Below are positions 421-22,100 of a stretch of 24,618 bases of DNA, one piece after another. This DNA comes from a virus: positions 1 through 24,618 of the IMG/VR virus record IMGVR_UViG_3300029267_001041. One strand, written 5' to 3'. The translations under genes were made by a program, and so were the position numbers. The notes beneath the pieces are model-generated. The model worked only from the letters and a program-made list of their open reading frames with translations, had not been told where the DNA came from and made no database searches. Within the stretch, counting starts at the first letter, position 1. Every line of letters starts with the position of its first letter.

Positions 421-446
421 GGTTACCCCTTAACCCGGAAACGGGT
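421..446 (+). promoter_or_regulatory. Structured intergenic element, copy A: overlapping alternative hairpins
   Basis: GGTTA (421-425) can pair with TAACC (431-435). The ACC of that arm is also part of ACCCG (433-437), which pairs with CGGGT (442-446) across a GAAA (GNRA) tetraloop. The two hairpins cannot form together. Copies B (3665) and C (7889) keep both pairings with different bases. A terminator follows at once. The pairings are seen; a regulatory role is inferred. Confidence 0.55.
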
Positions 447-453
447 ATTACGC

Positions 454-514
454 GGCCCGATAGAACGTGCAGAGTGCCACCTCCCACTCGTGCAGAGTTT
501 TATCGGGCCTTTTT
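454..514 (+). terminator. Rho-independent terminator before portal gene (copy A)
   Basis: GGCCCGAT (454-461) pairs perfectly with ATCGGGCC (502-509), followed by a run of five T (510-514). The 40-nt interior is unusual: it holds a 10-nt direct repeat CGTGCAGAGT (466-475 and 489-498) and an AGTG/CACT mini-stem. The same GCCCG...CGGGC plus T-run design recurs at 3699 and 7926. The portal start codon follows 17 nt after the T-run, so readthrough or a new start must feed the portal gene. Confidence 0.75.
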
Positions 515-530
515 CGTTTGAGGACGTTGA

Positions 531-2480
531 ATGTTTAAAACTTACAATATTGCGAATTTACCGCCGGACACAGACAAGGAAGCGGTTGGAAAGTTCGGCC
601 AGCTTCTATTCGAAGATGCCCAAAGGGAAAAGGAGCGCCAGGGACTTCCGCACAAGTGGACACACGCATACGCCATGTATCGAGGCGACCACTGGCAAAA
701 AGGCGCGGCCTTTCGCAAGAAAAGCAAGTCAAAGGTTACGGTCAACCTGTTTTTTACCAACGTCATACGAACCGTATCCAACATAACCGCCCGGCGTCCG
801 GTGGCCGAAGTCGTTGACCTTGAATCCGGTGAAGACAATGCGGATATGGCCTTGACCGCCCGTAATCGTAAATGGTGGAAAGAGACCAAACAGCAAGTCA
901 AGCTCAAAGAAACCGCCCTCAAGATGGAAAAGTACGGAATCACCGTCGAGCATCCGGTGTGGATGGGCAAGAAAAACGATTGCGACATTGTTGTCATGGA
1001 TTGTTTTGCCTGTTTCCCGGCACCCGGTAACTGGAAGAATTTTGATGAGGATTGCCCGTATTTTTGCAAAGCGTTTGCCGAAAACTGCGATGTGCTGGAA
1101 AAACGATACGGATTAGATCCGGGAACGATTAAACCTGACGAAGTTTATTCTTCCATGGGAGAGGCCAGGTCCGAGACCCGCCCCGTACCGACAGACACCT
1201 ATCCGGGATCGGTGGCCGCAGCCGGGAATTATACAGATCCAAACATGCACCCGGTTGTGGATGGAAGTACCTATCTTCAGAAAAGAGCTCTTGTCGTAGA
1301 GTTGTGGGTGCGAGATCCCTATACCAAGACAACTACCTCCGAGAATGTAGTGGGCGAGGACCTTGAGGGCAACCCGGTTATTGAGAAAACCACGAAAAAG
1401 AAATACCCGGACGATATCCGGCGAATCCTTTTCACCAATCAAGGGCAATTGGTTTTAGAGGACACGCCTAATCCAAATATAAACTGGGCACTACCGATGG
1501 ACCGGGTAAAAGAAACTCACGCATGGGGGAGATTCCCTTTCTATAAAGTCAATTCGTACCTTGATACCACATCGCCATGGGGATTCAGTGCACTCGATCA
1601 AGTGGGAGATCTCAATAAAAAGGTTGATGAAATCATGTCGCGTCTTTTGGCATGGGTTATGCGGGTCATGTTTCCGCCGCTGATCGTGGCAAAAGAGACC
1701 GGATTGACAAAAGCCATGATCAACTCTGATCCGAACCGGGTCTATATGGTTGAAAAGGTGGCGCATGTCAACGGTATTCGATTTGAGCCGGTACCGAATC
1801 TGCCGAGCAACTTCATTGAGATATTGAACCTCGTTTTAACATTCTTTGACCGTATTTACCAGATTGAAGACGCTGATCGCGGTGTAGGCCCCAGGGGAGT
1901 CGTTGCCGCTTCCGCTATTGTCGCCCTTCAGGAGCGAAACGCCGTACTGATTCAAGAGAAGATTATCGCCGTTGACGGTTTGGTGGAGAACAGGGGCAAG
2001 TGGAAAATCTCAATGGATCAGAACTTTGGATTCATTAAGGAACCGATTGAGGTTGACGGTGACCGAATGGATTTCCGGGGAACTGATCTTGTAGGCCGAA
2101 AGTTTAACTTTGTGGTTGAATCCGGGTCCACCATGCCGAGGACATCATTACAGGTCGAAGAACAGGCCAAGGATCTTTATGATAAAGGCGCAATTGACAG
2201 GCAAGCCCTTCTTGAAGCGTTGAACTTCCCGAACTGGAAGAAGATTATCGAACGTGCCGGCGAGGGCCAGGTTGACCAGGCATTGCAGATTCTAATCGCT
2301 GCGGGTCTGGATGAAGAAACGGCATATGCTTTGAAACAATATGTCATGCAGCCGGATCAAGGCCCGGGTGGGTCAAAAGAAAAATCCGGTGTTGAGTCTG
2401 TTGGGAAACCCAAAGGCATACAGGGGAAAACGCCTCCGGCGGGTGTTAGGCAGAATCCGGCGGTGGGGAAAGGGGTATAG
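531..2480 (+). CDS. Portal protein
   Basis: 649 residues, the expected size for a podovirus-type portal. The portal forms the dodecameric ring at one capsid vertex through which DNA is packaged and ejected, and docks the terminase and the head-tail adaptor. Characteristic stretches are YRGDHWQKG near the N-terminus; the WGFSALDQVGDLNKKVDEI core and following long helix at about residues 345-365; the region with the DADRGVGPRG turn and ASAIVALQERN helix (about 450-475); and a flexible Gly/Lys/Pro-rich tail. ATG 531 has GAGG 8 nt upstream. It sits immediately after intergenic element A and abuts the zinc protein at 2481 without a gap. Identity rests on recognised sequence pattern, size and the following scaffold/coat/adaptor order; no search was run. 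Confidence 0.87.
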   Translation: MFKTYNIANLPPDTDKEAVGKFGQLLFEDAQREKERQGLPHKWTHAYAMYRGDHWQKGAAFRKKSKSKVTVNLFFTNVIRTVSNITARRPVAEVVDLESGEDNADMALTARNRKWWKETKQQVKLKETALKMEKYGITVEHPVWMGKKNDCDIVVMDCFACFPAPGNWKNFDEDCPYFCKAFAENCDVLEKRYGLDPGTIKPDEVYSSMGEARSETRPVPTDTYPGSVAAAGNYTDPNMHPVVDGSTYLQKRALVVELWVRDPYTKTTTSENVVGEDLEGNPVIEKTTKKKYPDDIRRILFTNQGQLVLEDTPNPNINWALPMDRVKETHAWGRFPFYKVNSYLDTTSPWGFSALDQVGDLNKKVDEIMSRLLAWVMRVMFPPLIVAKETGLTKAMINSDPNRVYMVEKVAHVNGIRFEPVPNLPSNFIEILNLVLTFFDRIYQIEDADRGVGPRGVVAASAIVALQERNAVLIQEKIIAVDGLVENRGKWKISMDQNFGFIKEPIEVDGDRMDFRGTDLVGRKFNFVVESGSTMPRTSLQVEEQAKDLYDKGAIDRQALLEALNFPNWKKIIERAGEGQVDQALQILIAAGLDEETAYALKQYVMQPDQGPGGSKEKSGVESVGKPKGIQGKTPPAGVRQNPAVGKGV

Positions 2481-2738
2481 ATGAGACAAGCAAAAATTCA
2501 ATATAAATGTCGTAATTGTGGCGCTGTTTTTGAAGATGATCTTTTTGTAACTGAAGAAATGGCCAATATTGTTTTGGCGGCTATTGTAGAGCTGAAACAA
2601 TTACCGACAGTGGGCTGCACAACACCGCCTTATTTTCCTTCAATATACTCCATTCATGTGTGCAAGGAAACAGATGATGAAGTTCAAAAGGGTATTGCGG
2701 AAGTAATAGGCTATAGAATCCAAAAGGAAGGAGTATAA
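2481..2738 (+). CDS. Small zinc-binding protein (85 aa)
   Basis: A small protein starting right after the portal stop codon, with AAAGGGG as its ribosome site inside the end of the portal gene. It has an N-terminal CRNCG knuckle (C10, C13) and further possible ligands C46, H59 and C61, so it can bind one zinc ion. The middle (residues 25-40) is a predicted helix. There is no DNA-binding helix-turn-helix and no membrane segment. Its neighbour at 2740 is another zinc-ribbon protein, so the two may act together or in succession near the portal, for example as assembly or packaging accessories. That role is inference only; no family was recognised. Confidence 0.75.
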   Translation: MRQAKIQYKCRNCGAVFEDDLFVTEEMANIVLAAIVELKQLPTVGCTTPPYFPSIYSIHVCKETDDEVQKGIAEVIGYRIQKEGV

Positions 2739-2739
2739 A

Positions 2740-3036
2740 TTGCCTATTTATGAATACGAGTGTCAAGCCTGCGGAAACATCGACGAGCTAATCGAAATAA
2801 AATACAACAGCTCAAAGTTTAAGAAATGCTCCGAGTGCGGTGGCCGGTCAAAACGGATTATCTCCGCCGGTGCTATTCATACGGATACCCCGAGCTGGAT
2901 CAATGATGAACTCAGAGGGAGTATCCAGGGTGATGATGAGCGACCGATTGTGAACCGTAAGGATCTGGCCGAGGTTGTGGCCAAGAAAAAGATCGAGCCC
3001 ATTGAAAAAGGACATCGAAATCTAAGGATGATATAA
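2740..3036 (+). CDS. FmdB-like zinc-ribbon protein (TTG start)
   Basis: 98 residues. The first 40 are the small FmdB-type zinc ribbon: MPIYEYEC, C8-x2-C11 and C30-x2-C33 with glycines after each pair, ending in KRIISAG. The C-terminal 55 residues are charged and not part of that family. The start is TTG at 2740: the family's invariant MPIYEY begins exactly there, and a strong AGGAAGGAG site lies about 6 nt upstream, with no ATG in frame that keeps the ribbon. FmdB-like ribbons are common next to phage portal genes, but their function there is unproven; transcriptional or assembly roles have only been guessed. It overlaps the next gene by one base (TAATG). Confidence 0.85.
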   Translation: MPIYEYECQACGNIDELIEIKYNSSKFKKCSECGGRSKRIISAGAIHTDTPSWINDELRGSIQGDDERPIVNRKDLAEVVAKKKIEPIEKGHRNLRMI

Positions 3037-3242
3037 TGGGATTACTTGACAGAGCGAGAAAGAAGATAAGCAAAACCGTCGAGAATTTACGACCAATGAA
3101 ACGGTTGTCCGAGGGTTTGGGCGGTGGACCGTCGAATAAACCCAAGGTGACGCCGGCCAGTAAGCGCAAAAAGGTTAAGCCTAAAGGTGAAGGTACTATT
3201 TTCAGAGGGAAAGACGGAAAGCTTTATCGCCGCGCCGAATAA
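3036..3242 (+). CDS. Small basic hypothetical protein (68 aa)
   Basis: The start codon shares one base with the preceding stop (TAATG), so translation is probably coupled. The product is strongly basic and low in complexity: MGLLDRARKK at the start, a GLGGGPSNKP loop, then KRKKVKPKG, ending with FRGKDGKLYRRAE. Such a charge pattern fits nucleic-acid or capsid-interior contact, but no domain was recognised. No cysteines, membrane segment or signal peptide. It closes the portal-zinc ribbon cluster before a 50-nt gap. Confidence 0.7.
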   Translation: MGLLDRARKKISKTVENLRPMKRLSEGLGGGPSNKPKVTPASKRKKVKPKGEGTIFRGKDGKLYRRAE

Positions 3243-3258
3243 CAGATTTTTTAGAAGG

Positions 3259-3642
3259 AAACAGACAGGCAGTAGATAGAAAGGAGATAGACATGATAGT
3301 AAAGGTAGAAAGGTATTCAGGAAGAGAGGAATATATTATGATTGACAATATTAAAGAGGTTCACAAGTCTAACGGATTTGACAATGCCGAACCTTTAAGG
3401 GCGACAGACATTTTAATTCAGGATTGTGGCGAACAGGTATCAAACGTAGTTGGGGGCGCAACCTGTATGGAGGCATGCAAAATGCGCTTGAACTGCGTCA
3501 AGAATGACGGTTCAGAGATTGATATAATTTTTGATACAGTTGCTTATATTCTTAACGATAACGGTAAGACCATAGAGCGTGTTTTGGCGAATCAAAGAAG
3601 TGTAATGTGCTCAAACGAATAGAATAAACCTACTGTCTGTTT
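3259..3642. repeat. Imperfect inverted repeat flanking the gene at 3293
   Basis: AAACAGACAGGCAGTAG (3259-3275) is matched on the other side of the gene by CTACTGTCTGTTT (3630-3642), its reverse complement except for a two-base gap (GC). The two arms lie 17 nt before the start codon and 7 nt after the stop codon. They could pair in the mRNA, or be the scar of an inserted unit. Arms are seen; meaning is inferred. Confidence 0.5.
3293..3622 (+). CDS. Hypothetical cysteine-containing protein (109 aa)
   Basis: Not recognised. ATG 3293 has a near-ideal AAAGGAG site 8 nt upstream; an internal ATG at 3338 (Met16) is a less likely start. The N-terminal 25 residues look like a beta hairpin (MIVKVERYSGREEY...). 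The middle has four cysteines, C45, C58, C62 and C68, a spacing that could bind a metal or form disulfides. The last third (IDIIFDTVAYILNDNGKTIE) reads as two beta strands with a turn. The gene stands apart from its neighbours by 50 nt upstream and more than 200 nt downstream and is bracketed by an inverted repeat, so it may be an accessory (moron-like) gene. Function unknown. Confidence 0.7.
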   Translation: MIVKVERYSGREEYIMIDNIKEVHKSNGFDNAEPLRATDILIQDCGEQVSNVVGGATCMEACKMRLNCVKNDGSEIDIIFDTVAYILNDNGKTIERVLANQRSVMCSNE

Positions 3643-3664
3643 GTTTTTTAAGGTTTAACATAAC

Positions 3665-3690
3665 GGATACTTTTTAATCCCGAGAGGGAT
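3665..3690 (+). promoter_or_regulatory. Structured intergenic element, copy B: overlapping alternative hairpins
   Basis: GGAT (3665-3668) can pair with ATCC (3677-3680) across an ACTTTTTA loop. The same ATCCC (3677-3681) can instead pair with GGGAT (3686-3690) across a GAGA (GNRA) tetraloop. Compared with copy A the paired bases change from GGTT/AACC/GGGT to GGAT/ATCC/GGAT, keeping both helices. It is joined by an AAAC linker to the terminator at 3699. Pairings are seen; regulation is inferred. Confidence 0.6.
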
Positions 3691-3698
3691 ATTAAACA

Positions 3699-3750
3699 GC
3701 CCGGATGGAATGGATAATGCGAAGGCACCCATTTTATACCGGGCTTTTTT
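3699..3750 (+). terminator. Rho-independent terminator before scaffold gene (copy B)
   Basis: GCCCGG (3699-3704) pairs with CCGGGC (3739-3744), followed by six T. An inner AATGG/CCATT helix and a TGC/GCA tip extend the stem. It ends the transcript from the portal cluster and the orphan gene, and is followed by about 80 nt of leader before the scaffold gene. Confidence 0.78.
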
Positions 3751-3786
3751 ATTAACACTTAACGAAGGGGTAGCTTGAAATACAGT

Positions 3787-3814
3787 CCCTAACCACAGGG
3801 TAGCCGTATAACGG
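3787..3814 (+). other. Two small hairpins in the scaffold-gene leader
   Basis: CCCT (3787-3790) pairs with AGGG (3797-3800), and CCGT (3804-3807) pairs with ACGG (3811-3814) across a 3-base loop. GGGTAGC occurs twice nearby (about 3769 and 3798) and again in the hairpin at 5645. These could shape the leader of the scaffold mRNA; short stems like these also occur by chance. Confidence 0.3.
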
Positions 3815-3833
3815 TCCTGAAAGAGAGGCAAAG

Positions 3834-4622
3834 ATGCCAGGAACCAAAGACGACGAAGGAACGAAAAAGGTTGCTCCCGTTGACGAACCCAATAACAAGG
3901 ATGCCCCGGCAAAGCCGGACAAGCAACCTGATGAGGGTAAGAAAAAGGAAGAGCAAACCTTTGGTCAATTCAAAACTGCTGAAGAGCTTGCAAAAGGCTA
4001 TTCCGATCTTGAGAAGAAGTTCGGAACTCAGGGCAAGGAGTTAGGGACCCTGAGAAATGAAGTCGCTCAACACCGTGCGGCCTTGGCCGAGAGGGACAAA
4101 GCCGACAAGCAGAAACAGGAACCGATCACCGATTATGACGCAAAGCTCAATGAGATTTACGAAAAATTGGAGGTCGGGGATATTTCAGTCACGGAAGCGG
4201 TGAAACAGTCCAATGCGTTGACCGCCGAAATGACCATGGCGAAAGCCGTTGCCGAGTCCAACAAGCGCACACAGGAGATTCTAATCGACAAGGACGCTGA
4301 AACCGCCGAATCAGAGTGGCACAGAGACCATCCGGACTATGCCGAGGTTGTGGCCTCCGGGGTATTACAGCCCTATATCGACAAGAATCCTATCCTGGTC
4401 GATGAGACCGTTGCCTATTTTCAGTACAAGGCCGATCAGCGCTTTGAAGAGGGCAAGGCCGAAGCCGAAAGAATTGCCAAGGGAGCCGATATCGCGGACA
4501 CCGTTGTCAAAGAACCTGGGGGTTTAGCACCAAGAACACCAACTAGGCAAGAACCCCTGTCCGAAGACAAAATGCTTGCAGCGCAAATGGAAACGCTGAA
4601 GAAAATGAGGGGTCAGGCTTAG
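3834..4622 (+). CDS. Probable capsid scaffolding protein
   Basis: 262 residues directly before the major capsid gene, the usual place for scaffold. The first 40 residues are disordered and Lys/Asp/Pro-rich. The FGQFKTAEELAKGYSDLEKK segment (about 43-62) and the following heptad-rich helix with GKELGTLRNEV are typical of phage scaffold proteins, which guide coat assembly from inside the procapsid and then leave. More helices follow (residues 95-150 and 185-220), and the C-terminus is a short charged helix (DKMLAAQMETLKKMRGQA), the part that usually contacts coat protein. ATG 3834 has GAGAGG about 5 nt upstream. No protease motif is visible. An alternative is a head-maturation accessory, but position and composition favour scaffold. 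Confidence 0.78.
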   Translation: MPGTKDDEGTKKVAPVDEPNNKDAPAKPDKQPDEGKKKEEQTFGQFKTAEELAKGYSDLEKKFGTQGKELGTLRNEVAQHRAALAERDKADKQKQEPITDYDAKLNEIYEKLEVGDISVTEAVKQSNALTAEMTMAKAVAESNKRTQEILIDKDAETAESEWHRDHPDYAEVVASGVLQPYIDKNPILVDETVAYFQYKADQRFEEGKAEAERIAKGADIADTVVKEPGGLAPRTPTRQEPLSEDKMLAAQMETLKKMRGQA

Positions 4623-4624
4623 TT

Positions 4625-4638
4625 CTCACTATAGGAGA
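4625..4638 (+). promoter_or_regulatory. T7-promoter-core-like sequence overlapping the coat-gene ribosome site
   Basis: CTCACTATAGG followed by AGA lies 9 nt before the coat ATG. It matches the core of the T7 RNA polymerase promoter from -9 to +2, but the upstream recognition part (-17 to -10) matches poorly. The AGGAGA is also the ribosome site, so part of the match is explained by that. Probably chance unless copies recur elsewhere in the genome. Confidence 0.15.
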
Positions 4639-4646
4639 ATTTAACG

Positions 4647-5615
4647 ATGGCACTTACATTAGATGAACTTAACGCGACAACTTTAGACTATTGGGAAAGA
4701 ACGACTACTGATATTTACTTTCTCGATAACGTACTGCTTTGGAAACTGCTAGGAAATGGCAACCTCGACAACGAGCTTGTCAAGGCCCATGAAACCGTTG
4801 ACGGCGGTATGATGATTCGAGTTCCGCTCGAATACGCAGAATCCAACAGCGGATCTTATGGAAACGTCACAAGGATTGACCAGGGGAAGGTTGACCTTGC
4901 CAATGCCGCTCGGTTCAGATGGGCGGGGTATTTTTCAAGTAACACCATTGACCTTAACGACAAAATCAAGAATGCCGGTGATGCCGCAATGATCAACCTG
5001 GCCAACCTGAAGATTAAAAATATCCAGAAAACCATCCGGAAAAAGATGGGGACGGATATTTACGCTTCTGCAGCGGATAGTTATTCATTCCTCGGCCTGG
5101 GAAACCTGTTTAGCACGGTAACGGCAACCGCATACGGTTCAATCGCAGAGGATGATATGGCCGATTGGAAGGCGAATCTTATTGATACCGCCGAGGCAAT
5201 CAACTTCAAGAACCTTCAGAAGTGCCGTCGAACCCCGAATATCGGCCAGAACGATAAGGATAAGCCGAACCTGTATATCACCACGGATCTTTTGAAGGAC
5301 GGTTTTGAAAGAACCCTTCAGGTCCAGGCGCGGTATAAAGATGTGGATATGGCCGATGCTGGATTTGAGAATGTTCTTTTCAAGGGTCAGCCGGTTGTGG
5401 CCGATGATCGCCAGACCGCTGGGTACTGCGATTGCTTGAATACTCGATATCTGAGGCTTCGAGCGCACAGTATGTATAACTTTACGCCTCCGGTGTGGAA
5501 AGCCAACAACGATCAGCCCGATGTGTGGACGGCGGATCAGCGGTTCATGGGGCAGTTGACCACGAACCACAGAAAGGCCCATGTACGGCACACGAATTTT
5601 GATGAGCCTGCGTAA
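4647..5615 (+). CDS. Probable major capsid protein
   Basis: 322 residues, in the size range of HK97-fold coat proteins, directly after the scaffold gene and with a strong AGGAG ribosome site. The N-terminus (ALTLDELNATTLDYW, LWKLLGNGNLDNELV) is followed by a region with the alternating pattern of an HK97 P-domain/E-loop (VDGGMMIRVPLEYAESNSGSYG, then the FRWAGYFSSNTID strand). A long spine-like helix spans about residues 108-135 (AAMINLANLKIKNIQKTIRKK). The A-domain-like C-terminal half contains NLYITTDLLKDGFERTLQVQ, QPVVADDRQ and a C-terminal beta region ending in FMGQLTTNHRKAHVRHTNFDEPA. There is no N-terminal delta domain, consistent with separate scaffold. The identification is from position, size and pattern; mass spectrometry of virions would settle it. 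Confidence 0.82.
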   Translation: MALTLDELNATTLDYWERTTTDIYFLDNVLLWKLLGNGNLDNELVKAHETVDGGMMIRVPLEYAESNSGSYGNVTRIDQGKVDLANAARFRWAGYFSSNTIDLNDKIKNAGDAAMINLANLKIKNIQKTIRKKMGTDIYASAADSYSFLGLGNLFSTVTATAYGSIAEDDMADWKANLIDTAEAINFKNLQKCRRTPNIGQNDKDKPNLYITTDLLKDGFERTLQVQARYKDVDMADAGFENVLFKGQPVVADDRQTAGYCDCLNTRYLRLRAHSMYNFTPPVWKANNDQPDVWTADQRFMGQLTTNHRKAHVRHTNFDEPA

Positions 5616-5639
5616 GGTTGTGTAAGGTTTGAATAACTC

Positions 5640-5669
5640 CGACTGGGTAGCGCAACTGTTACCCAGTCG
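5640..5669 (+). other. Strong stem-loop between coat gene and next gene
   Basis: CGACTGGGTA (5640-5649) pairs perfectly with TACCCAGTCG (5660-5669) across a 10-base loop. No T-run follows, so it is not a standard terminator. A processing or mRNA-stabilising hairpin after the highly expressed coat gene is the simplest reading. Confidence 0.6.
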
Positions 5670-5699
5670 TAAATAACCATTATTATAAGGAGAACCAAC

Positions 5700-6059
5700 A
5701 TGGATGAAGACATCAGATTTCCAGTACATCTTTTAGGCGTTGCCGGAGTTGAAACGCTACCCTTCATATGCCCGTACAGATGCACGGTACGGGACTTGAT
5801 CGGGGTTGTTGACGCTGATCCCGGCGACGACGAAACCGTAACGCTTACCAATAACACTCAATCCGTGACCTTGGGAGTATTGCTTTTTGGCAATGATATT
5901 GCGGCCAACACAGCGCATGTATCATGGACGCCGGACGCCACAAACGGGAATACAGTTTGTGAAGAGGGCGACATTCTCTTGTTTACGACTTCGGATTGTG
6001 CGGCCATTGCGGTATTCAACATGATCCTCGAACTTGATCCAAAGTGTAGAGTGCCCTGA
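5700..6059 (+). CDS. Small beta-rich virion protein, possible capsid decoration protein
   Basis: 119 residues with an AAGGAGAA site before ATG 5700, in the slot after the coat gene where decoration or head-completion proteins often lie. The sequence alternates hydrophobic strands with Gly/Asp/Asn turns (LLGVAGVETLPFICPYRCTV; DETVTLTNNTQSVTLGVLLF; GDILLFTTSDCAAIAVFNMI), which looks like a small beta sandwich. Five cysteines (FICPYRC, VCEEG, DCAA, KCRVP) are more than usual for a capsid protein of this size. There is no signal peptide. The stop codon shares a base with the adaptor start (TGATG). The decoration role is inference from position and strand pattern, not from a recognised family. Confidence 0.6.
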   Translation: MDEDIRFPVHLLGVAGVETLPFICPYRCTVRDLIGVVDADPGDDETVTLTNNTQSVTLGVLLFGNDIAANTAHVSWTPDATNGNTVCEEGDILLFTTSDCAAIAVFNMILELDPKCRVP

Positions 6060-6721
6060 TGAAAAGCCGTGAATTAATAGAACGTGTCAAGGAAAAGATC
6101 CACGATGCGTCCTTTACGCCCAAGAGGATTCTTGACAAGCTCAACAAAGGCGTCGGGAGGATCGCCAACCTGGTTGATCTTCCCGACCTTAAATCGTCTG
6201 ACACGGTTGAAACGAGTACAGACCCGTATGTTTCCCTGCCGTCTGATGAGGGTAATGTCTTCCACAAGAAAGACAAAAGCCTTTTCTTTGTTTCGAGCGC
6301 CAGCCAAGACAATGAGGTTTACATCGAAGAATCGTGGATCAAATTCTTGGGCAAGTGGCCGACCCTCGATGATGCGGGAGACGTTCAACAGGTGTGCGTT
6401 CGCGCAAGCCGGTTGTATTTTCAGCCGATCCCGTCGGATGCGGACACGTTGACGCTTCATTTTTTCAGGCGCCCGGTGGCCATGACCGCCAATTCAGACG
6501 ATGAGCCGGACGGTATTCCAGAAGACTTACAGGAAGACCTTTTGGTTAATTTCGCCTGTTGGGATATTTTTTCGGAGAAAGAAGACGAAGACGGAAAGAC
6601 CCCTGAAACGGATAAATACCAAAGGTTGTTTGCCCAGGCGCTTGCCGAACTGAAGATGTTTGTAGGTCCGAGAGATGCCAAACCGGATTATTACGATTAT
6701 AACGAAGAGGATTTTATATGA
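6059..6721 (+). CDS. Head-tail adaptor (connector) protein
   Basis: 220 residues. It binds under the portal ring and seals the packaged head for tail attachment. The N-terminus is helical (SRELIERVKEKIHD, then a helix leading to LPDLKSSDTV). A central beta region (YVSLPSDEGNVFHKKDKSLFF ... VRASRLYFQPIPSDADTLTL) is followed by the FFRRPVAMTANSDDEPDGIP stretch and a C-terminal helix pair (EDLQEDLLVNFACWDIF). This 'strand - RxP - IP - helix' order is typical of podovirus adaptor proteins of the SU10/P22-gp4 functional class. It begins on the last base of the preceding stop and overlaps the next gene by four bases (ATGA). The acidic tyrosine-rich tail (YYDYNEEDFI) is notable. Confidence 0.72.
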   Translation: MKSRELIERVKEKIHDASFTPKRILDKLNKGVGRIANLVDLPDLKSSDTVETSTDPYVSLPSDEGNVFHKKDKSLFFVSSASQDNEVYIEESWIKFLGKWPTLDDAGDVQQVCVRASRLYFQPIPSDADTLTLHFFRRPVAMTANSDDEPDGIPEDLQEDLLVNFACWDIFSEKEDEDGKTPETDKYQRLFAQALAELKMFVGPRDAKPDYYDYNEEDFI

Positions 6722-6960
6722 CTGACGAAGAAAAACCCAAGATGCCGGAATTAACCCCGGAGCAAAAAGCGGCGATGGAAACCGTTAAAAATAGTGTTTC
6801 CAAGTTCAATCAGGTCGTGTCCTTCTACCTTTTTAATCAGCTTCAAATGATTAACGATGGAGAGATCCATATTTCTTTAACGGTTAAGAATCGACAGATC
6901 GATAACATTGAACTGCACTCACGGATGTCAAGGAAGATGGTTAATGGCCAAAAAGATTAG
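6718..6960 (+). CDS. Small hypothetical protein coupled to the adaptor gene (80 aa)
   Basis: Starts in a four-base ATGA overlap with the adaptor and runs 17 bases into the next gene, so all three are translationally coupled. An acidic, Pro/Lys-rich N-terminus (TDEEKPKMPELTPEQKAA) leads to a helix (residues 18-45, VKNSVSKFNQVVSFYLFNQL) and a short beta stretch (EIHISLTVKNRQIDNIELH). No family recognised. The position suggests a minor connector or assembly factor, which is inference only. Confidence 0.65.
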   Translation: MTDEEKPKMPELTPEQKAAMETVKNSVSKFNQVVSFYLFNQLQMINDGEIHISLTVKNRQIDNIELHSRMSRKMVNGQKD

Positions 6961-7873
6961 ACTCTTTACCGGGTCCACAGGGCTAAACACCCAAGAAGAT
7001 CCGGCAAGGATTCAATATAACACCAAGACAGGCGTTCAGGAACTTGCTGCTTGCGAGAATATTGATATCAGCGACGACGGAAGGATATCAAGACGCAAGG
7101 GATTTACGCAGCAGGTTGATTTGTCTGGATGCCACAGTTTGTTTTGTGAGGGCAGGGATTGTCTTTTTGTCCATGGCGACGCGCTTTGTGTGCTGAATAA
7201 GGATTACAGCTATACCGCAATCCGGAATGTTACGCCTAATGCACGGCTCAGATGCCGACAGGTGGATGATATCGTTTATTACTGTAATGGGTTTGAGCGC
7301 GGATATGTCTTTGAAGGCACAAGCTACGGCTGGAATATGCCGACTTATTACGGTCCTGTTACCACAAAAGCGTTTACCGATCCTCCTATAGGCACTGACC
7401 TCGAGTATTATGCCGGGCGTATGTTTGTTGTTCAGGGCAAGATCGTGCCGTATAGCGAACTGTTTGACATTTCGACATTTGAGCGCAAAAGCTATCTTCC
7501 GTTCGACCGTGAAGTCGTGATGTTTAAAGCGGTTAAGGACGGTATTTATGTTAGCACCGATAAAGAGACCTTGTTTTTATCCGGAAACGACGCCAAAGCT
7601 TTGGATATCACAAAAATTGCCGATTACCCGGCGATCAAGTGGACTGAGGTTAAAATTATCGGTCGCCTAATTTTTACCAAGGACGGAAACGCCATGATTT
7701 TAGACAAGGGCGGAAGTGCCTGCCTGTTGTGGCTGTCCAAAGAAGGTGTTTGCTTTGGTGGTCCTGGCGGCGAGTTCGTTAATTTAACCGAGCATAAGGT
7801 TGATTTGCCAACCGCTTTAACCGGATGCGGTTTTATGTACGATCACAGATATATCGGAATTATGGACCCATAA
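6944..7873 (+). CDS. Beta-rich head/tail connector or stabilisation protein
   Basis: 309 residues from ATG 6944, which has AAGGAAG about 8 nt upstream; the frame extends to a TTG at 6908 but that start has no ribosome site and lies inside the previous gene. It opens MAKKIRLFTGSTGLNTQEDP, followed by ENIDISDDGRISRRKGF, a pattern I associate with podovirus proteins located between adaptor and tail. Repeated four-strand units with a 'GR/GK + aromatic' signature (YYCNGFERGYVFEGTSYG; YYAGRMFVVQGKIVPYSELF; DGIYVSTDKETLFLSG; IIGRLIFTKDGNAMILDKG) suggest a beta propeller. It ends right before intergenic element C, so it closes this transcription unit. The fold is inferred from strand periodicity; the exact role (stabilisation, hub or nozzle) is not settled. 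Confidence 0.65.
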   Translation: MAKKIRLFTGSTGLNTQEDPARIQYNTKTGVQELAACENIDISDDGRISRRKGFTQQVDLSGCHSLFCEGRDCLFVHGDALCVLNKDYSYTAIRNVTPNARLRCRQVDDIVYYCNGFERGYVFEGTSYGWNMPTYYGPVTTKAFTDPPIGTDLEYYAGRMFVVQGKIVPYSELFDISTFERKSYLPFDREVVMFKAVKDGIYVSTDKETLFLSGNDAKALDITKIADYPAIKWTEVKIIGRLIFTKDGNAMILDKGGSACLLWLSKEGVCFGGPGGEFVNLTEHKVDLPTALTGCGFMYDHRYIGIMDP

Positions 7874-7888
7874 ACAAAATATTATAAC

Positions 7889-7916
7889 GGATACTTTTTG
7901 ATCCTCTTTAAGAGGA
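7889..7916 (+). promoter_or_regulatory. Structured intergenic element, copy C: overlapping alternative hairpins
   Basis: GGAT (7889-7892) can pair with ATCC (7901-7904) across ACTTTTTG; alternatively TCCTC (7902-7906) pairs with GAGGA (7912-7916). TCC is shared, so the two exclude each other. The 17 bases from 7884 (ATAACGGATACTTTTTG) are the same as in copy B except for the last base, while the second stem has completely different bases yet still pairs. An AAAC linker joins it to the terminator. Confidence 0.6.
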
Positions 7917-7925
7917 CCCCAAACG

Positions 7926-7960
7926 GCCCGATTGAGATGTATTTCTCATTCGGGCTTTTT
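7926..7960 (+). terminator. Rho-independent terminator before the tail-region genes (copy C)
   Basis: GCCCGATTGAGA (7926-7937) pairs with TCTCATTCGGGC (7944-7955) with one mismatch across a 6-base loop, followed by five T. It is the cleanest of the three terminators. An AAAGGAG ribosome site begins about 6 nt after the T-run and serves the next gene at 7979. Confidence 0.85.
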
Positions 7961-7978: not shown

Positions 7979-8737
7979 ATGGCTTTACGACTTTCAACAG
8001 GATTGAGAAATTTAATGCTTGGCGGGCAGGCAACGGTGACCGCAATTACCACAGGAAGTGATGCGTCAATCGAATTGAATATTACTGGTGGTGATGACAC
8101 CATTACCAGGGATGCAGGCAGTTGGATCACTGACGGATTTGTAGCTGGGGATATAATCAAAGTAACAGGGTGTACTACAGCCGCCAATGATACAGCACTT
8201 ACCGACCTTCGGATCAAAACTGTGGCTGCGCTGACATTGACTTTCGATGGTGCGGTTATTAATACGGACGAAGCACTTGCCGCCGCAGGCGTTATTTGTG
8301 CCGCCAAGGGTGGATGCCTGAAAGACATTTTCAGGAATGGTATTCTGTATATCTATACCGGTTCCCAGCCTGCTACGGCTGACACCGCCGCTTCGGGTAC
8401 GAATGTTGTAAAAATTACCGATTCTTCCGGTGCGTGGGTTGCCGGTGCCGAGGCCAACGGCCTTGAATTTGGCGATTATTCAGCCGGAACTTTATCGAAA
8501 TGCGCGGATCAAACATGGTCCGGGGTTGGTATTGGTGGCGGTGGTACAGCCGGATGGTTCAGGCTTTGTGCCAATGCGACAGATGCCGGAGCCCTTAGTA
8601 CCACATTGCCGAGAATTGATGGAAGTATCGGAACAAGCGGTGCAAACCTGAATATGTCCAGTACAACCATTGTGGACGATGCCACTTACACCATTGATAC
8701 GTTTACGCTGACATTGCCGTTGCAGTACGGTTCCTAA
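7979..8737 (+). CDS. Phage virion/tail protein with an inserted beta domain (252 aa)
   Basis: The N-terminus (MALRLSTGLRNLMLGG) and the part from residue 112 on (LKDIFRNGILYIYTGSQPATADTAASGT, NGLEFGDYSAGTL, WSGVGIGGGGTAGWFRL, DGSIGTSGANLNMSS, TYTIDTFTLTLPLQYGS) together make a protein type I recognise as common in phage structural modules, usually about 150 residues. Here about 95 residues (roughly 17-111) are inserted between the two conserved parts. The insert has its own beta pattern (DDTITRDAGSWITDGFVAGDIIKVTG ... IKTVAALTLTF), like the small Ig-like/tail-tube-associated modules found in phage tail proteins. Strong AAAGGAG site before ATG 7979. Part of a tail or virion-surface role is likely; the exact place in the particle is not known. 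Confidence 0.65.
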   Translation: MALRLSTGLRNLMLGGQATVTAITTGSDASIELNITGGDDTITRDAGSWITDGFVAGDIIKVTGCTTAANDTALTDLRIKTVAALTLTFDGAVINTDEALAAAGVICAAKGGCLKDIFRNGILYIYTGSQPATADTAASGTNVVKITDSSGAWVAGAEANGLEFGDYSAGTLSKCADQTWSGVGIGGGGTAGWFRLCANATDAGALSTTLPRIDGSIGTSGANLNMSSTTIVDDATYTIDTFTLTLPLQYGS

Positions 8738-8770: not shown

Positions 8771-11290
8771 ATGGGGCAGCTTGTATTTGGGCCATATGAT
8801 AACAGTGTTTTCGATGCGTATTATTACGACGACGATTATACGTTTCGGGTATGGATACCCCCGGCCCTTTTAACCGAGTGTAGTAAATTTCGAATTGGTT
8901 TTGGGTATTATTCAACTCAAAACGTTTATATTGACGCAGTATATGTCGGTCAATCATCGGGAGCAACAGCGGATTCCGCCTTTGACGGAACTCCTACTGC
9001 TGTTTTGTTTAGCGGTGTTGCCGCTGTTACCTACAATAGCGCCGTAAAGTACTCGGATTATGTGGAATATGATATAGACCCTACCAAGGGTCTTATCATT
9101 TCTATGGAATTTGGGGCGTCTCATTCCTATATGCCGTATGTGGAAGTGGCAACCGGGGATGAGGCCGATATCGTCACTTATCGGGATTATGGTGACTATG
9201 CTGATTCATCCTCATTTTCGGCAGATGCGACTTATGAAACCCGGAGACATTTAGTTGTCAGTATCGGAAATGTATTTGAATTAGACGACGATTTATCTAA
9301 CCTGAAGTCTGATGCCAATATTAACCATGCGCATCAGTCGAACGCCATTTCCGCGACCGCCGATATCGGGGCCGGTGATAACGGTGTAGTTACAACAACC
9401 GTTGATACCGCCGGAACTGACGGGAATAATTATACCATTGAGGTTGTGGCCGGTGTCGGTGTAGATCAGGCAATGTCAGCGGCTATTTTAGCTAAGGCCG
9501 TTACCGTTACCCTGGGAACCGATGGGGCCGGCGATCCTGACGATACCAAAAATACAGCTACGCTTATTACCGCAGCGATTGAGGCTTTGGCAAATGTCAG
9601 TGCAAGTGCTTCCGGCACCGGTGCAACTCCATTAACTGGTGCAGAAGGTCCGACCTCTTTTACCGGGGGTGTGGATCAGTGGAGAACGTTCGATGCTCTT
9701 TCGGACATGGAATCAACCGGCGAAGTCGAGTGGAATTATGTTGTTGATGACTTGCCGGATGTTCAATTAACCGGTTTCGGGAAAATCGGCTTTATCGATC
9801 TTGACGATGGAGTGTTGTCAGACCTTCAATGCACGGGGCGAACAGGGGATAATGGCGAATTGGGTTATTATGAACCTGTTTATCTTCCAGATATGCGTTG
9901 CGAAGGTCAGACAGGGGAACGTGCGGATTTAGACGCCAATCTTCCAGATCTTCAATGCACCGGATATACCGGGGCTCAGGCAGATAACACATTGCCGGAC
10001 CTGGAAATTTCCGCAACCGGGACCGCCGGGCAGGTTGGAAACCTGGATGAAACACTTCCCGACTTAGATTGTACGGCTTATGCCGGATCCAGATGCGGAA
10101 TATTAACACTGCCTGATCTTCAGATCGAGGCTACCGCTTCAGGGTCTTACGCCACCCTTGACGCCAAGATCCCTGCATTGATAATCGAGGCTGAAGGATC
10201 GACACCGACAACCGGTGTTTTGGATATGGATTTGACATTTCCTACATTCGATGGGGAAATGTCTTTGGATTGTCGGTTGAACCTGAATGCTGATCTTTCA
10301 AATTTAAAAATATCTTCAACACTTTATGGACCACGGACTTTAATACTCGATGCAACACTTCCAGATTTAAAGGTCAATGCTGAACTGAAAAGAGAAGTTG
10401 CCGGGGAGTTGGATGACAATCTTCCTGGCCTGCGGATAGAATCAACAGCCCATTGTACACCTGAAATCAGTCTTGAAAGCGACCTTCCGGCTCTTAAACT
10501 TTCTTCAACGCTTTATGGTCCGAGAACTTTAAATCTTGATGCGACACTTTCAGATCTAAAAATAGAAGCTGAACTTAAACGGGAGGTTTCGGGAGAATTA
10601 GACACCGATCTTCCGGGATTACGAATAGAGGGAACAGCTCATTGTACGCCTGAGATCAGTCTTGAAAATGATTTACCGAATTTAAAACTTTCTTCTACAG
10701 CCTATGGTCCGAGAACCTTAGTTCTTGACGCCACGTTATCGGATTTAAAAATTGAGGCTGAACTCAAACGTGAAGTTTCGGGAAATCTTGATACCATTCT
10801 TCCGGGGTTGCGAATAGAATCAACAGCGCATTGTACTCCTGAAATAAGCCTTGAAAGTGATTTACCAAACTTAAAATTATCTTCTACAGCATACGGCCCA
10901 AGAACATTAACCCTTGATGCAACATTATCAGACTTAAAGATCGAAGCCGAACTTAGAAGAGAAGTTACCGGAAGTTTGGATACCGACCTTCCAGGTTTGA
11001 GGATAGAAGGCGCCGGCCATTGTGACCTTGATACAATCAGTCTTGACGAAAATCTTCCGATCTTAGGCCTTGAGGCCAGTGGTTACTCGGGCGAAGTCGG
11101 AACTCTTGACGCAACACTTTCAAACCTGACAATCGAAGCGTCTATTCTTTCTGAAGAAATCGGAGATCTTGACGCGACACTCCCGGCTTTGGTGATGGGC
11201 GACACCCGGACCGGGGGAACCGGAGGAGAAAGCGGAACTATTTCTTATCTTAGCAGATTTGCGGATTATATTTTAAGGCATACGAGGTAA
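8771..11290 (+). CDS. Long repeat-containing tail/fibre-like protein (839 aa)
   Basis: Three regions are visible. Residues 1-180: an aromatic, Asp-rich beta region of unknown type (YDNSVFDAYYYDDDYTFRVW...). Residues about 195-305: a module with GTDGNNYTIEVVAG, TVTLGTDGAGDPDDTKNTA and AAIEAL, the 'GTxGN' beta module found repeatedly in phage sheath and fibre proteins. Residues about 325-810: repeats of 17-21 residues with the core LDxxLPxLxIEA, becoming a strict 21-residue repeat from 505 on. The repeat has alternating Leu and Asp, which suits a beta-solenoid or repeated strand-turn stack. ATG 8771 has AAAGGGG upstream. A tail fibre or appendage is the likely role; no receptor-binding or enzymatic motif was seen. 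It ends in a helix-like YLSRFADYILRHTR. Confidence 0.6.
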   Translation: MGQLVFGPYDNSVFDAYYYDDDYTFRVWIPPALLTECSKFRIGFGYYSTQNVYIDAVYVGQSSGATADSAFDGTPTAVLFSGVAAVTYNSAVKYSDYVEYDIDPTKGLIISMEFGASHSYMPYVEVATGDEADIVTYRDYGDYADSSSFSADATYETRRHLVVSIGNVFELDDDLSNLKSDANINHAHQSNAISATADIGAGDNGVVTTTVDTAGTDGNNYTIEVVAGVGVDQAMSAAILAKAVTVTLGTDGAGDPDDTKNTATLITAAIEALANVSASASGTGATPLTGAEGPTSFTGGVDQWRTFDALSDMESTGEVEWNYVVDDLPDVQLTGFGKIGFIDLDDGVLSDLQCTGRTGDNGELGYYEPVYLPDMRCEGQTGERADLDANLPDLQCTGYTGAQADNTLPDLEISATGTAGQVGNLDETLPDLDCTAYAGSRCGILTLPDLQIEATASGSYATLDAKIPALIIEAEGSTPTTGVLDMDLTFPTFDGEMSLDCRLNLNADLSNLKISSTLYGPRTLILDATLPDLKVNAELKREVAGELDDNLPGLRIESTAHCTPEISLESDLPALKLSSTLYGPRTLNLDATLSDLKIEAELKREVSGELDTDLPGLRIEGTAHCTPEISLENDLPNLKLSSTAYGPRTLVLDATLSDLKIEAELKREVSGNLDTILPGLRIESTAHCTPEISLESDLPNLKLSSTAYGPRTLTLDATLSDLKIEAELRREVTGSLDTDLPGLRIEGAGHCDLDTISLDENLPILGLEASGYSGEVGTLDATLSNLTIEASILSEEIGDLDATLPALVMGDTRTGGTGGESGTISYLSRFADYILRHTR
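10283..11197 (+). repeat. Coding tandem repeats: 21-residue units in a 63-residue (189 bp) super-repeat
   Basis: Three 21-residue units alternate: one containing LKIEAELKREVSG, one containing LPGLRIE(S/G)TAHCTPE and one containing LKLSST(L/A)YGPRTL. The LDAT unit starts at 10346, 10535, 10724 and 10913, exactly 189 bp apart. Outside this core the units drift (9749-10282 and after 11030). The protein copies are nearly identical while codons differ throughout. Confidence 0.9.
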
Positions 11291-13637: not shown

Positions 13638-16600
13638 ATGTCAATAGGACCAATGGGAAGCGCAAACGACTTAACACCTCCGGCGGCGGTTTCAAGTGCC
13701 GGAACATTGGTTTCGGAGCGATTTGAAATAGCTGAAATTTACGGCACTGAGTCATGGGACAGGGCGTTAACATATTTGGCTCAAATTGCCGGGTTTAGTT
13801 TTTATATGCCGTGGACCGCTGTTGAAATGGACGATATTCCGACAACCGGATTAGACGCCATTAATGCAAACGAACCCACACTTCCCGAAATCAGTCCGAT
13901 AGATATTTTTATCCCGACACTGGATGCGGTTGCCCCGGAAATGGAAGACGTTGAAACCGACATCGGAGATGTACCTAATTTTGTTCCGATAGATCCTAAC
14001 TTTAATATTCCAGACACGCCGAGCGTAACCTGGCCGGAACTTTTAGACGAAGCGCAACCGTTATCAGATGTAACCATACCCGCAAAGCCAAGCTACACAA
14101 GTCCGGCGGCGCCGGTTATGTCAGGGGTAAGCATACCGTCTGTTCCTGAACTCAACATGCCGACATTTGAAGGCGTTGAACCCGAGATAGACTATGGTGA
14201 GGCACCGATAGCACCGTCAGTCAGTCTTCCGGATCTTGAACTTATTTCACCGGAAACACCCGATATAGATGTTCCGAGTCCTCCCGAGCTTGATCTTCCG
14301 GCATTTGAAGGTGTCAGGCCGATTATGGACACACTGACAATCCCATCTCCCCCCGAATACGATATGCCTAACTTTGAGGGTGTCGAGCCGGATATAAGCG
14401 ATTTTTCAGCACCGATAGCACCGGAAGCAAGCATACCGGATCTTGAACTTATTTCGCCAGAGACACCGGATGTTGATATTCCTTCGCCGCCCACGTTTGA
14501 TCTTTCGGAATTTGATGGCATTAAACCGGTGATGGATACATTAACGATTCCTTCACCGCCGGAATATAATATGCCTAATTTTGAAGGAGTTGAACCAGAT
14601 ATAGAAGACTTCTCTGCGCCAGTAGCACCGGAAGCAAGTATCCCCGATCTTTCATTAACGGCACCCGAAACACCAGACATTGATATTCCTTCGCCGCCGG
14701 AACTCGACCTTCAGGAATTTGATGGTGTTAAACCGATAATGGATACACTAAGCATACCAACCCCGCCAACCTTGAACATTCCATCCTTTGAAGGGGTTGA
14801 ACCAGACATAGGAGATTTTTCTGCGCCTATTGCTCCTGAAGCAAATATACCGGATCTTGTGCTTACATCTCCCGAAACACCGGATATTTCAGTTCCGGGT
14901 GCGCCGGAGTTAAACCTGCCGACATTTAGCGGAGTTAGGCCGGTAATGGACGCATTGAGCATACCTTCACCGCCGGAGTTTAATGTTCCATCGTTTGACG
15001 GTGATCTTCCGGTCACGGATTTAACACCGCCGGAACCCATGTTTTATTACAATGAAACCCGGTATGACAGCGATCTTTTAAACGAATTAACCAGCAAACT
15101 TTTAACGGATATCCGAGCCGGGGGAACCGGTCTTGATGCTGACACCGAACAGGCTATATGGGATCGGGCAACTGCCAGACAGACAGAAGAAAATGAAATT
15201 GCATTTGAAGAAGCGAAAAACTTTTGGGCTTCAAAAGGATGGGAATTGCCACCGGGCGCTCTTGTAGGTGCGGTGATTGACGTCAGAAACAAAATTGACC
15301 GCCGAAACACCGATCTTAACAATGATATTTTAATTCAGCAATCCAAGTTGGCACAGGAAAATACCCATTTCATTATACAGTCCTGTCTTAATCACGAAAA
15401 AATGATGATAGACGACACCAATACCTATCAGCAAAGAGCGTTTGAGGCGGCCAAGGCCGTAGTGGATTATGCTATTAAGGTTTATTTGGGAAAGGTTGAA
15501 GCGTACAAGGCCCGGATGGAAGGGTACAAAGTTCAGGCCGATGTATTTGAGTCGAGGATTCGTGCCGAAGTTGCTAAAGCCGATTTCTATAAAAGCCAGA
15601 TCGAGGGCATAAAGGCCGTGGTTGAGGTATTCCTTGGGGAAATGGAAGGATATAAGGCGGACGCTTCTGTTTATGAAACCATCGCAAAGACCGAGCTTGT
15701 AAAGCCTGAATTCTTCAAAGCTGAAATAGACGGCAAGCGTTTAATTCTTGATCTTTACATTGCACAATTAGAAAGAGACAAGGTTCGGGCTTCGGTATTT
15801 GATTCTGTTGTCAAAGGCGAAATGATAAAGCCCGAGTTTTATAAAGCTGAAGTCGCTGGTATGCAGGCGGAAGTCGATGCAGAAAAATTAAAACTCGCAA
15901 AGTATGAGACACAGGCGAACGTATTTGAAACCCTTGTAAAAGCAGAGGGAATAAAGCCAGAATTTTATCGAAGTCAGATCGAGGGCGCAAAAGCAACCGT
16001 TGATGTATTCCTTGGGGAAATGGAGGGGTATAAAACCGAAGCATCCGTTTATGATACTTTAGCAAAAAATGAACTGATAAAAACAGAGTTTTATAAAACC
16101 GAAATCGAGGGCAAAAGATTAAACCTTGACCTTTATACCGCACAACTGGAACGGGATAAAATCAGGGCAATTATATTCGATTCGATAGTCAAGGGTGAAT
16201 CAATAAAACCAGAATTCTATAAGGCAGAAATAGCCGGTATGCAAGCGGAGGTCGATGCTGAAAAACTTAAACTCGCCAAATATGAAACCCAGGCAAGCGT
16301 TTTTGAAACCAAAGCCAAGGCCGAGGGATTAAAAGCTGATTTTTACCGAAGTCAGATTGAAGGAACGAAAGCGGTTGTTGATGTATTCTTGGGCGAGATC
16401 GAAGGGTACAAGGCCGACGCATCCATATATGACACACTGGCAAAAACCGAACTGATAAAAACAGAGTTTTACAAAACAGAAATTGAAGGTAAACGGTTAA
16501 ATCTCGATCTTTACACCGCACAGCTTGAACGGGACAAAATAAGGGCAATTGTGTTTGACTCAATAATTAAAGGAGAATCAATTAAACCCGAGTTTTACAA

Positions 16601-19148: not shown

Positions 19149-22100
19149 ATGGGAATTGAAGCTGGAAAAATAGATTTTGACGCTTGGGACAAAGAGATAG
19201 CTGAACAAAAGCCACAGAAATCAACTGGGATGGACTTCGATTCGTGGGATAAAGAGATATCGGCGGGCGAAGAGGTAGAACAACGAGGCTTGCCCGGTGA
19301 CATTGTTTCCGGGATCGTTCGCGGTGTTGCCGTTGAAATGCCGAGTTTGTTTCTGGATACGGTGGGGGCCACCGAAAGAATAGCCAGAAAAGCCCTTGGT
19401 TATGAAAAGGAACAAGAGGTTGGGCCTATTGGAGAAATGGCCAGGGCTGGGAAAGAAGGCCTTGAACAATTCAGGTCCGAACATTCTATTTTAAGAGCCA
19501 AAGAAAAACCCGGTATTATCTCCCAGGGCGTTGAGGCGGCGGCCATGTCCATAAGTTCCGGCGCTCCGGGTGCCGTAGCCGGTTTTGGAATCGGTTCATT
19601 GTTTGGCCCGGCGTCCCCGGTTACCGCACCCATGGGCGCATTGATCGGTTTTGCCATGTCCGGGGGTCTTACGTTTGGTCTTGCCGAGTACGAAAATGTC
19701 ATACAGCTTGCCGATGAGCAGGGCATTGACCGGGCGGAAAGCGAACCGGCGGCTATTTGGTCGGGATTGGCTGAAGGTGGTTTTGAATTCGCTTCCGACC
19801 TGATAACCGGTGGATTGCTAAAGGTTGCCAAACCATTGACCGCCCCGGCAAAAGAAGGATTAAAGTCGGGAATTCGCCAAGTGTTTAAAATGGGAGTCAA
19901 GGAAGCCCTTGCAAGATCTGGTGCGGTTCTTGCCTCTGAAACTTCAATGGAAATGCTGACCGCCGGTGTCCAGGCAGAGCAATATAAAAAGATCGGTCTC
20001 GGAGACGCTACCTTTTGGGAGGGAGCGAAACAGGCCATGGGTCCGGCGTTTGTCGCGTCTGTAATCTTTGCCGGGATCGGAACCGGTGCCACACGTTTAC
20101 ACCAGGTTTCAATCAGAAGAAAGATCGAGAATGGTGCTATAGATCCAAAGAAACGTATGCAGGCGGCTAATGAAGTTGGTGAAATCCTCGGCCAGGTTGA
20201 CAAGGACCTTGCTAAAGTGTGGCGGATTAACGCTACTGAGGCCATAAAGAATAAAGAAAATATCGATATTGACGATCCTGACCTGATACGGGCAACCGCT
20301 GTTAATCGTGCCGACCAGGAACCCGGCGGAGCAACACCGGAAAACATTGAGGTTAAAGAACAGGAAATCAAGCAGGAGATTCACACCGAGAAACAGGACG
20401 ATATCAGAAACCATATATCCCTTGCCGTTGCCATAGGGGAAATAAACGATGTTCAGGCGCATGAGTTAGGCAGAAGCGTAGGTCTTGGCCTTGACGAAGT
20501 GAACCAGGCGCTTATTCGCGGTACTGGCGTACAGCAAATGTTCAACGATGCGGACCCCATTGAACTCAGACCCTTTGCCGTTCATAACGATATTGCCATT
20601 CCCGATTCCATAACCGACGGCAATCAAATGGCGGCTATCATTCAGGAAGGCTTGAAAGAGGAAGGGTCGGTTGTCTCTGAACTGGCCAAACAGGTAAAAA
20701 ACCTTGAACAGACCGCAAAAACACGGGGCATGGAACATGCGGCGGAAACTCTTGCGAAGAAGAAAGCGGCATTGGATAAGATGTTGCCGGAACCGGATGA
20801 GGTTTACGGGGAAGCTCCGCCGATAGAGAAGGGATTTGAAAAGGAGGCCGAAGGTGATCGTGAAGAAGGGAAACAATTGGTGGGTGAAGTCGGAAAAGGG
20901 GAAGAACCTGGGGGGGCCATACCAAAGCCGGAAACAGGCGGTGAAGAGGTTGAAACAGGTGGAGTACTTCAAACACCGGAAGAAATAACTCCTGAGACGC
21001 CCGTAGTCGAGCTGGAGACTGAACCCGTACCAGAAGTCGCAAAACCTGAGAAAGTCGAAGGAACGGCGGCTGATGAATCGGTGGAGGCTGAAAAGCCAAT
21101 TTCTGTAAGATTAAACAATGGCGAGGTCGTCACTCGGTCTGCCCGTACAAAGGGTAAGTTTCAAACAACAAGATTTACAGAAGAGGGGGAACCTGCTGGA
21201 CACGAAGAGCATAACACCCTTTCTGAAGCAATTAAAGATAATTACAAAGAGCTTGACAATCCTGTTTCAAGGCTTGCAAAAAATACTCCAAACGCAGTTG
21301 AGTCATGGGAAGAAGCGACATTTGAACATCCACATAAAGACGAATTGCAAAAGGCTCCATATGCCTATGTTTCACCGTTAAGACCGCTTACAGGCGTTGG
21401 TGTCAAAGGAAAAGTATCTGCTGATAAGTCTGGAAGGGTTGGTGTTTTATACAGAGACACGCCACTTCCTGTTGAAAAAATGGAATCGTTATCATTAATT
21501 CCTGTTACACCAAAAGCTGTGGAATCGTTTGCCGTAGATATGGCTAACAAATATGAAGGGATAAAACCCAAAGCCACCAAGCCCGAACTTTCAGCAGAAG
21601 ACAAAGCCATGCGAGACATGCTCAAGCCGGGAACGGGTGAATTTCTTAGGAAGAACGGGTTGATTGGGCCTGAGAAGACCGTACACGATTACAGCAATAC
21701 GCAAGTTAATCTTCCTGAAGAATCTGCAAAACCCATTAAGGATCTTGCTCAAAAAATACCCGAAGAAGAACTTTATACCGAACCAGATAATAATGATTAC
21801 GGTCGTGAGGATGCACCACACATTACCGTTCGTTATGGACTCGAAACAACAAATCCTAAAGATATTGAACCCGCATTTAAAGACTTGGGGCCGGTAAAAG
21901 TAAAGTTCGGCAAGGTCTCTATTTTTGAAACCGACAATTACGACGTCGTTAAGGTCGATATTGAAAGCCCTGATTTAGAGAAGGCCAATAAGAAAGTTGG
22001 CGAAACGGTAGATCTTCCGGGCGAAACCTTTAAAGATTACAAACCCCATGCCACTATTGCCTATGTAAAAAAAGGTGAGGGTAAAAAATATATAGGCGAT

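Follow-up and report, generated by a model that had tools for sequence, protein, structure and literature searches.

The virus record IMGVR_UViG_3300029267_001041 of the IMG/VR database was analyzed over its positions 1 to 24,618, a stretch which is referred to as the window in the following and in which a tailed phage's structural region is located. Within the window, three intergenic copies of a structured RNA element are present on the + strand, at 421-514 (copy A), 3665-3750 (copy B) and 7889-7960 (copy C), as the initial annotation had located them. In our judgment the chances are about evenly balanced that this element represents an undescribed family of phage cis-regulatory RNAs, in which a conditional terminator is linked to a translational operator. 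Judged from sequence comparison, putative conditional intrinsic terminators precede the modules of virion genes, most consistently the scaffold and capsid genes.

All three copies follow a common plan, composed of a 5′ GGWUAC, a small hairpin I, an A-rich linker, a GC-rich hairpin (hairpin II) and a U-run; the linker and the GC-rich hairpin with its U-run had already been described and are seen in each copy. Copy A lies 5′ of the portal gene and comprises GGTTAC (421-426), hairpin I (433-446, ACCCG GAAA CGGGT), the terminator hairpin II (454-509) and the U-run (510-514). Copy B, 5′ of the scaffold gene, is built from GGATAC (3665-3670), hairpin I (3677-3690, ATCCC GAGA GGGAT with the flanks TTTAA/TTAAA), the terminator hairpin II (3699-3744) and the U-run (3745-3750). 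Copy C, 5′ of a virion structural gene, consists of GGATAC (7889-7894), hairpin I (7902-7916), a short terminator hairpin II (7925-7955) and the U-run (7956-7960). Both the placement at structural-gene boundaries, i.e., 5′ of portal, scaffold and virion-protein genes, and the GNRA tetraloops of two copies (GAAA in A, GAGA in B) agree with the initial annotation. A 19-mer, AACGGATACTTTTTRATCC, is identical in copies B and C, for which 0.03 matches would be expected by chance in the window. The same phage is represented by a 63.5 kb contig (G002), which is longer than the window and carries a fourth copy (copy D) at 60301-60391 (L086:901-991), 5′ of an open reading frame (ORF) starting at L086:1011. 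All copies show the hallmark of intrinsic terminators, a GC-rich stem with a U-run immediately 3′ of it.

The distribution of the element was followed with two covariance models. Model R1 was built from 10 copies of the window and of close relatives found via the capsid protein and scored copy A with 60.7 bits, copy B with 87.8 bits and copy C with 61.5 bits. Outside its training copies it matched a portal-gene copy in the relative L092 (E-value 4e-7) as well as copy D (1e-5), and it further found about 20 copies, nearly all of them 5′ of the scaffold gene (capsid proteins mostly 48-64% identical). Model R2 comprises 28 copies, scored copy A with 57.3 bits and was tested on 61 later-fetched loci obtained with a different capsid alignment, of which 45 matched (E≤0.035; best 3e-9); the capsid query for these loci was built from element-bearing viruses, and 45 of 61 is not a frequency in nature. 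All of these matches are located on the + strand about 1 kb 5′ of the capsid gene and are therefore positioned before the scaffold gene, the order of scaffold and major capsid gene being kept in all relatives parsed. With the matches of both models, the element recurs directly 5′ of the scaffold gene in dozens of divergent viral contigs. Per whole record, four copies were counted in G002, two in G023 and one in each of the others. A scan of five metagenome-assembled genomes (MAGs, about 17 Mb) gave three matches, two of which fell on the viral contigs already known and the third, a second copy, on a different contig of the same MAG; the specificity of the covariance model is high. Exact matches of GGATACTTTTTRATCC in other viral contigs stood mostly in hairpin-less contexts and were taken as chance. 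The covariance models of Rfam 15 gave no match in the window at E≤1 and one chance match, away from the element, in eight relatives, which leaves the element without a known RNA family, as stated before.

Among the records examined no cultured phage carrying the element was found, and the sole named record is the Methanosarcina virus MetMV (L100, MK170447) with a weak match to R1 (E-value 0.29) and one to R2 (0.003-0.005). MetMV is labelled an archaeal virus and has, besides the element, a nested scaffold leader of the kind described below and a bacterial-style Shine-Dalgarno sequence; its host assignment deserves a check. The cultured phages Myxococcus Mx9, Bradyrhizobium ppBjS10J-1, Stenotrophomonas BUCT555 and Ruegeria 45A6, in which distant capsid relatives occur, were without the element.

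Comparison across the relatives identifies hairpin I and the terminator stem as conserved predicted structures. In the alignment of 28 copies (A4) the covariation score amounted to 0.502 against 0.191±0.016 in shuffles, and in 40 copies outside the training set of R2 (A7; 38 distinct rows, some fetched contigs being near-duplicates) to 0.536 against 0.174±0.015, a value reached by none of 500 shuffles; slid structures on this held-out alignment gave at most 0.13. The p-values from shuffles reported here take no account of shared ancestry. Within hairpin I two-sided base changes were observed at five or six of the six pairs, and the terminator helix is paired to 99.4% in the 28 copies and to 100% in the 40 held-out copies, in which the first bases of its stem, GCCC, barely vary. 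GGNNAC and the loop adjoining hairpin I are retained across very divergent viruses. None of the findings which the initial annotation had named as speaking against the element, i.e., no further copies, no covariation and variable upstream arms, was made for hairpin I. In nearly every copy T5-T6 follows directly 3′ of the GC stem, as required for a terminator. This argues against an element of mRNA processing or stability, whose hairpins would mark cleavage sites and protect 3′ ends, with segments decaying at different rates. Such a function, which we consider improbable, would fit the intergenic position between adjacent genes and the stable hairpins followed by a U-rich single strand, but no conserved motif for cleavage stood out in the alignments, in which none was systematically searched for.

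The initial annotation had further described mutually exclusive hairpins, with a 5′ arm pairing to the middle arm in one of the two states. The two arms do change together among copies A, B and C, but in the relatives this pairing is not conserved: of the 28 copies just 7 show the full four-base match of such a GGNN/NNCC switch, compared with 5.7±1.8 when arms are swapped among copies (p 0.32), which is chance level, and the switch was rejected. A different pairing is indicated by the conserved positions. The 5′ side consists of GG, a three-base loop WUA, a C that hardly ever varies and, after it, mostly U or C, and the CCC of the terminator is preceded by an invariant G and, before this, usually by A or G. 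The 5′ GG-[WUA]-CU is complementary to AG-[C]-CC at the terminator foot, giving an outer stem which encloses hairpin I (candidate antiterminator pairs in copy B: 3665/3702, 3666/3701, 3670/3699 and 3671/3698). Its first pair changes jointly from G-C to A-U in L225, L208 and the second copy of L223 (p 0.00025 by shuffling), representing at least two independent events, and for the second pair p was 0.006. The outer stem also extends over more pairs than it does with swapped arms (all copies, z 4.1; after dereplication, z 3.7 and p 0.0002). Nested fold and terminator stem have three bases in common, the first G and two Cs, and are therefore mutually exclusive. What characterizes an attenuator, an upstream arm which pairs with a terminator arm and covaries with it, is found in this outer stem. 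The comparison supports the view that the 5′ arm of the nascent RNA can pair with the terminator foot and compete with the terminator, and the conservation of GCCC beyond the needs of a terminator would fit such a double use. Of the RNA type suggested initially, the phage-specific structured RNA stands, with attenuation as the most natural reading of a U-run terminator amid co-directional genes, whereas the particular switch does not.

The leader that separates the U-run from the scaffold gene spans about 80-100 nucleotides (nt) in most copies and contains a related structure. In the window this is an operator-like bulged hairpin at 3797-3818 (+ strand; AGG-GTAG-CCGT ATA ACGG-T-CCT; p=0.005 against shuffles), located directly 5′ of the Shine-Dalgarno sequence. 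A second, weaker module is probably present at 3768-3789 (+ strand; GGG-TAG-CT...AG-T-CCC) as judged from the tandem or nested leaders seen in relatives; on its own it is not significant in the window. The Shine-Dalgarno-proximal hairpin has the general form GGG-ANAA-stem-loop-stem-(N)-CCC. With any four-base loop allowed, an unbiased search yielded a hairpin better than shuffles (p<0.05) in 41 of 57 scaffold leaders, with the loops ACAA (15), ATAA (6), ATAC (5), ACAC (4) and AGAA (3). Nested double leaders of the form GG-ANAA-P ... Q-CC-loop-GG-ANAA-Q′ ... P′-CC, with ACAA, ATAA, GCAA or GTA as loops, occur in 30 of 49 leaders (each p about 0.01). The module mostly lies 33-42 nt 5′ of the scaffold start, and its Shine-Dalgarno-proximal form was found 5′ of the scaffold gene in the scanned records, besides scattered matches in coding regions; it is also present in relatives without the terminator element. 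As would be expected of a translational operator, it constitutes a conserved structured site adjoining the Shine-Dalgarno sequence of the gene presumed to be regulated.

Element and leader share a short asymmetric internal loop (WUA or ANAA opposite one base) adjoining G-C pairs. The outer stem and hairpin I, with a three-base 3′ loop, are laid out like the leader motif, and the terminator hairpins of the scaffold sites contain a single motif module, as read from the alignments. From this we infer that one recognition motif is used repeatedly in element and leader. CsrA-type GGA sites were dropped as an explanation, many copies having GGT or GGG in place of GGA.

In most copies only 2-17 nt separate the upstream stop codon from the GG of the element, and the copies at sites other than the scaffold site end 16-26 nt 5′ of the next start; because of these short distances, the downstream genes would have to be reached by read-through. 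The AT-rich sequence 5′ of the GG in all copies could point to stand-alone small RNAs or late promoters beginning at GG. However, the gap behind the stop codon leaves little room for a promoter, promoter-like sites occur at chance level and the AT-rich stretch varies, which makes this explanation highly improbable. A search for a single-subunit RNA polymerase (PF00940) gave no match, and neither did the control of this search.

A strong stop before capsid genes would be useful only if conditional. In the mechanism that we propose, one phage protein would bind the shared internal loop, candidates being the scaffold protein, for which the known scaffold autoregulation of P22 is a precedent, or the zinc-ribbon protein encoded at 2740-3036. 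On the nascent 5′ half the protein would prevent formation of the terminator and allow read-through, and beside the Shine-Dalgarno sequence it would limit scaffold translation, the combined effect being that dose and timing of the virion proteins would be set. That one RNA-binding protein reads a single loop motif twice, in an antiterminator repeated before virion modules and in an operator that controls scaffold translation, is put forward tentatively, as a possibility with the balance somewhat against it.

Several points weigh against a conditional terminator of this kind. With GG/CC and 2-4 further pairs the competing stem is short, about one quarter to one third of the copies have A opposite A at its second pair, and the changes from G-C to A-U may represent only two independent events. 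The antiterminator and leader patterns were noticed by eye before testing, partly on the same sequences, and copies A, C and D lack the terminal module of hairpin II. The proposed sign of the regulation, read-through rather than stop, is a guess, and the RNA-binding protein is a candidate only, ligand and functions being proposed. Moreover, in a comparison of energies from unconstrained folds the terminator far exceeds the nested fold in stability unless a ligand helps; free-energy models strongly favour the completed terminator and therefore a ligand or kinetic control would be needed.

This energetic dominance also suits constitutive partial terminators, which would insulate modules and fix stoichiometry passively, with hairpin I aiding folding or a roadblock and with neither ligand nor switch involved. 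This is in line with the strong U-run terminators found amid co-directional genes, and the late gene clusters of SPP1 are likewise delimited by putative terminators (PMC6316719). However, passive termination does not account for GGNNAC and the loop beside hairpin I being kept across very divergent viruses, for the covariation of the outer pairing or for the motif common to the element and the translation leader, and a strong unbypassed stop before the proteins needed most makes little sense. Passive terminators appear rather unlikely to us, and a conditional terminator is preferred.

The genes concerned are those for the portal (531-2480), several small proteins, among them an FmdB-type zinc-ribbon protein (Zn_ribbon_8; 2740-3036, + strand; Pfam PF09723, E-value 9e-11), the scaffold (3834-4622, + strand) and the major capsid protein (4647-5615, + strand; phrog_9953, E-value 2.1e-21), followed by an SU10-type adaptor (6059-6721), a head closure gene (6944-7873) and later virion genes, the first of them being the virion structural gene 3′ of copy C (7979-8737). 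The scaffold gene, a match to phrog_13678 of unknown function, was named by its position directly 5′ of the major capsid gene and by its size. In 32 of 79 loci, homologues of the zinc-ribbon protein identified by pattern are encoded 5′ of the scaffold gene, and the protein of the window and those of relatives have in their C-terminal part the conserved segment W(L/I)(D/N)(D/N)..RG.LQ....PI..R..Y...L. The scaffold proteins (alignment A8) are highly divergent except for a conserved N-terminal stretch, FKT.EEL..GY.NLEKK.G.QGNELG.LR, which is possibly a functional or RNA-binding segment. Directly 3′ of the capsid gene (about 5640-5668) there is a perfect hairpin, ACTGGGTA...TACCCAGT, whose counterpart in the relative L006 (2399-2423) is followed by a short T-run; it possibly represents another step-down of expression. 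Two large virion genes (8771-11290 and 13638-17993) encode products with many tandem repeats (LPDLKIEA...; EFYKAEIAG.../PSPPE...), and a giant ORF of more than 1,800 codons (19149-24617), which runs off the window, probably encodes a protein of several domains, either an internal virion protein or a polyvalent one.

A tailed phage requires capsid subunits by the hundred but a single portal ring, and, a few models apart, the setting of this ratio is to our knowledge largely unexplained. An RNA that is widespread, covaries strongly and lies at these gene boundaries offers a concrete, testable control point. If the proposal is true, the element would establish an RNA family not described before, with a loop motif that can be identified, and might be one of the rare cases in which a single motif serves transcription termination as well as translation; capsid assembly would, with control at both levels, be coupled to transcription and translation. 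Many uncultivated phages can be annotated with the covariance models.

Comparison with known systems allows a first placement of the element. The put RNAs of phage HK022 comprise about 70 nt with two bulged stem-loops, are located downstream of early promoters and ahead of distant terminators, and bind the β′ zinc-binding domain of RNA polymerase (PMC9378689). Like putL and putR, the element is a phage RNA (about 70-95 nt) with two bulged hairpins which presumably acts in cis on termination. It occurs in phages associated with varied hosts and no dedicated protein is known, so that a nascent RNA could be imagined which binds the polymerase directly and lets it ignore pauses and terminators, without any phage protein. 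We regard this as decidedly improbable. Unlike in put, the second hairpin ends in its own U-run and is itself a terminator, with which the 5′ arm can compete; the copies are intergenic and precede structural genes deep within gene blocks, rather than following early promoters, and binding to the polymerase fails to explain the allied motif at the ribosome-binding site. The BglG/SacY RAT and trp TRAP systems are terminator/antiterminator leaders under the control of RNA-binding proteins. The element resembles them in that an upstream RNA overlaps one arm of an intrinsic terminator; sequence, fold and setting differ, the element is repeated at several operon positions in the viral genome, and these leaders were not among the Rfam matches. 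Coat-protein translational operators are known from the RNA phages MS2/R17 and Qβ, and as in these a bulged hairpin adjoins the start of a phage gene and is presumed here to be bound by a structural protein, whereas the phages in question are tailed phages with double-stranded DNA and the site is a 3-4 nt asymmetric internal loop, often in two nested copies. The synthesis of the scaffolding protein of P22 is limited after transcription, and a limitation at the same level in a tailed phage, although an unrelated one, is proposed here from the RNA.

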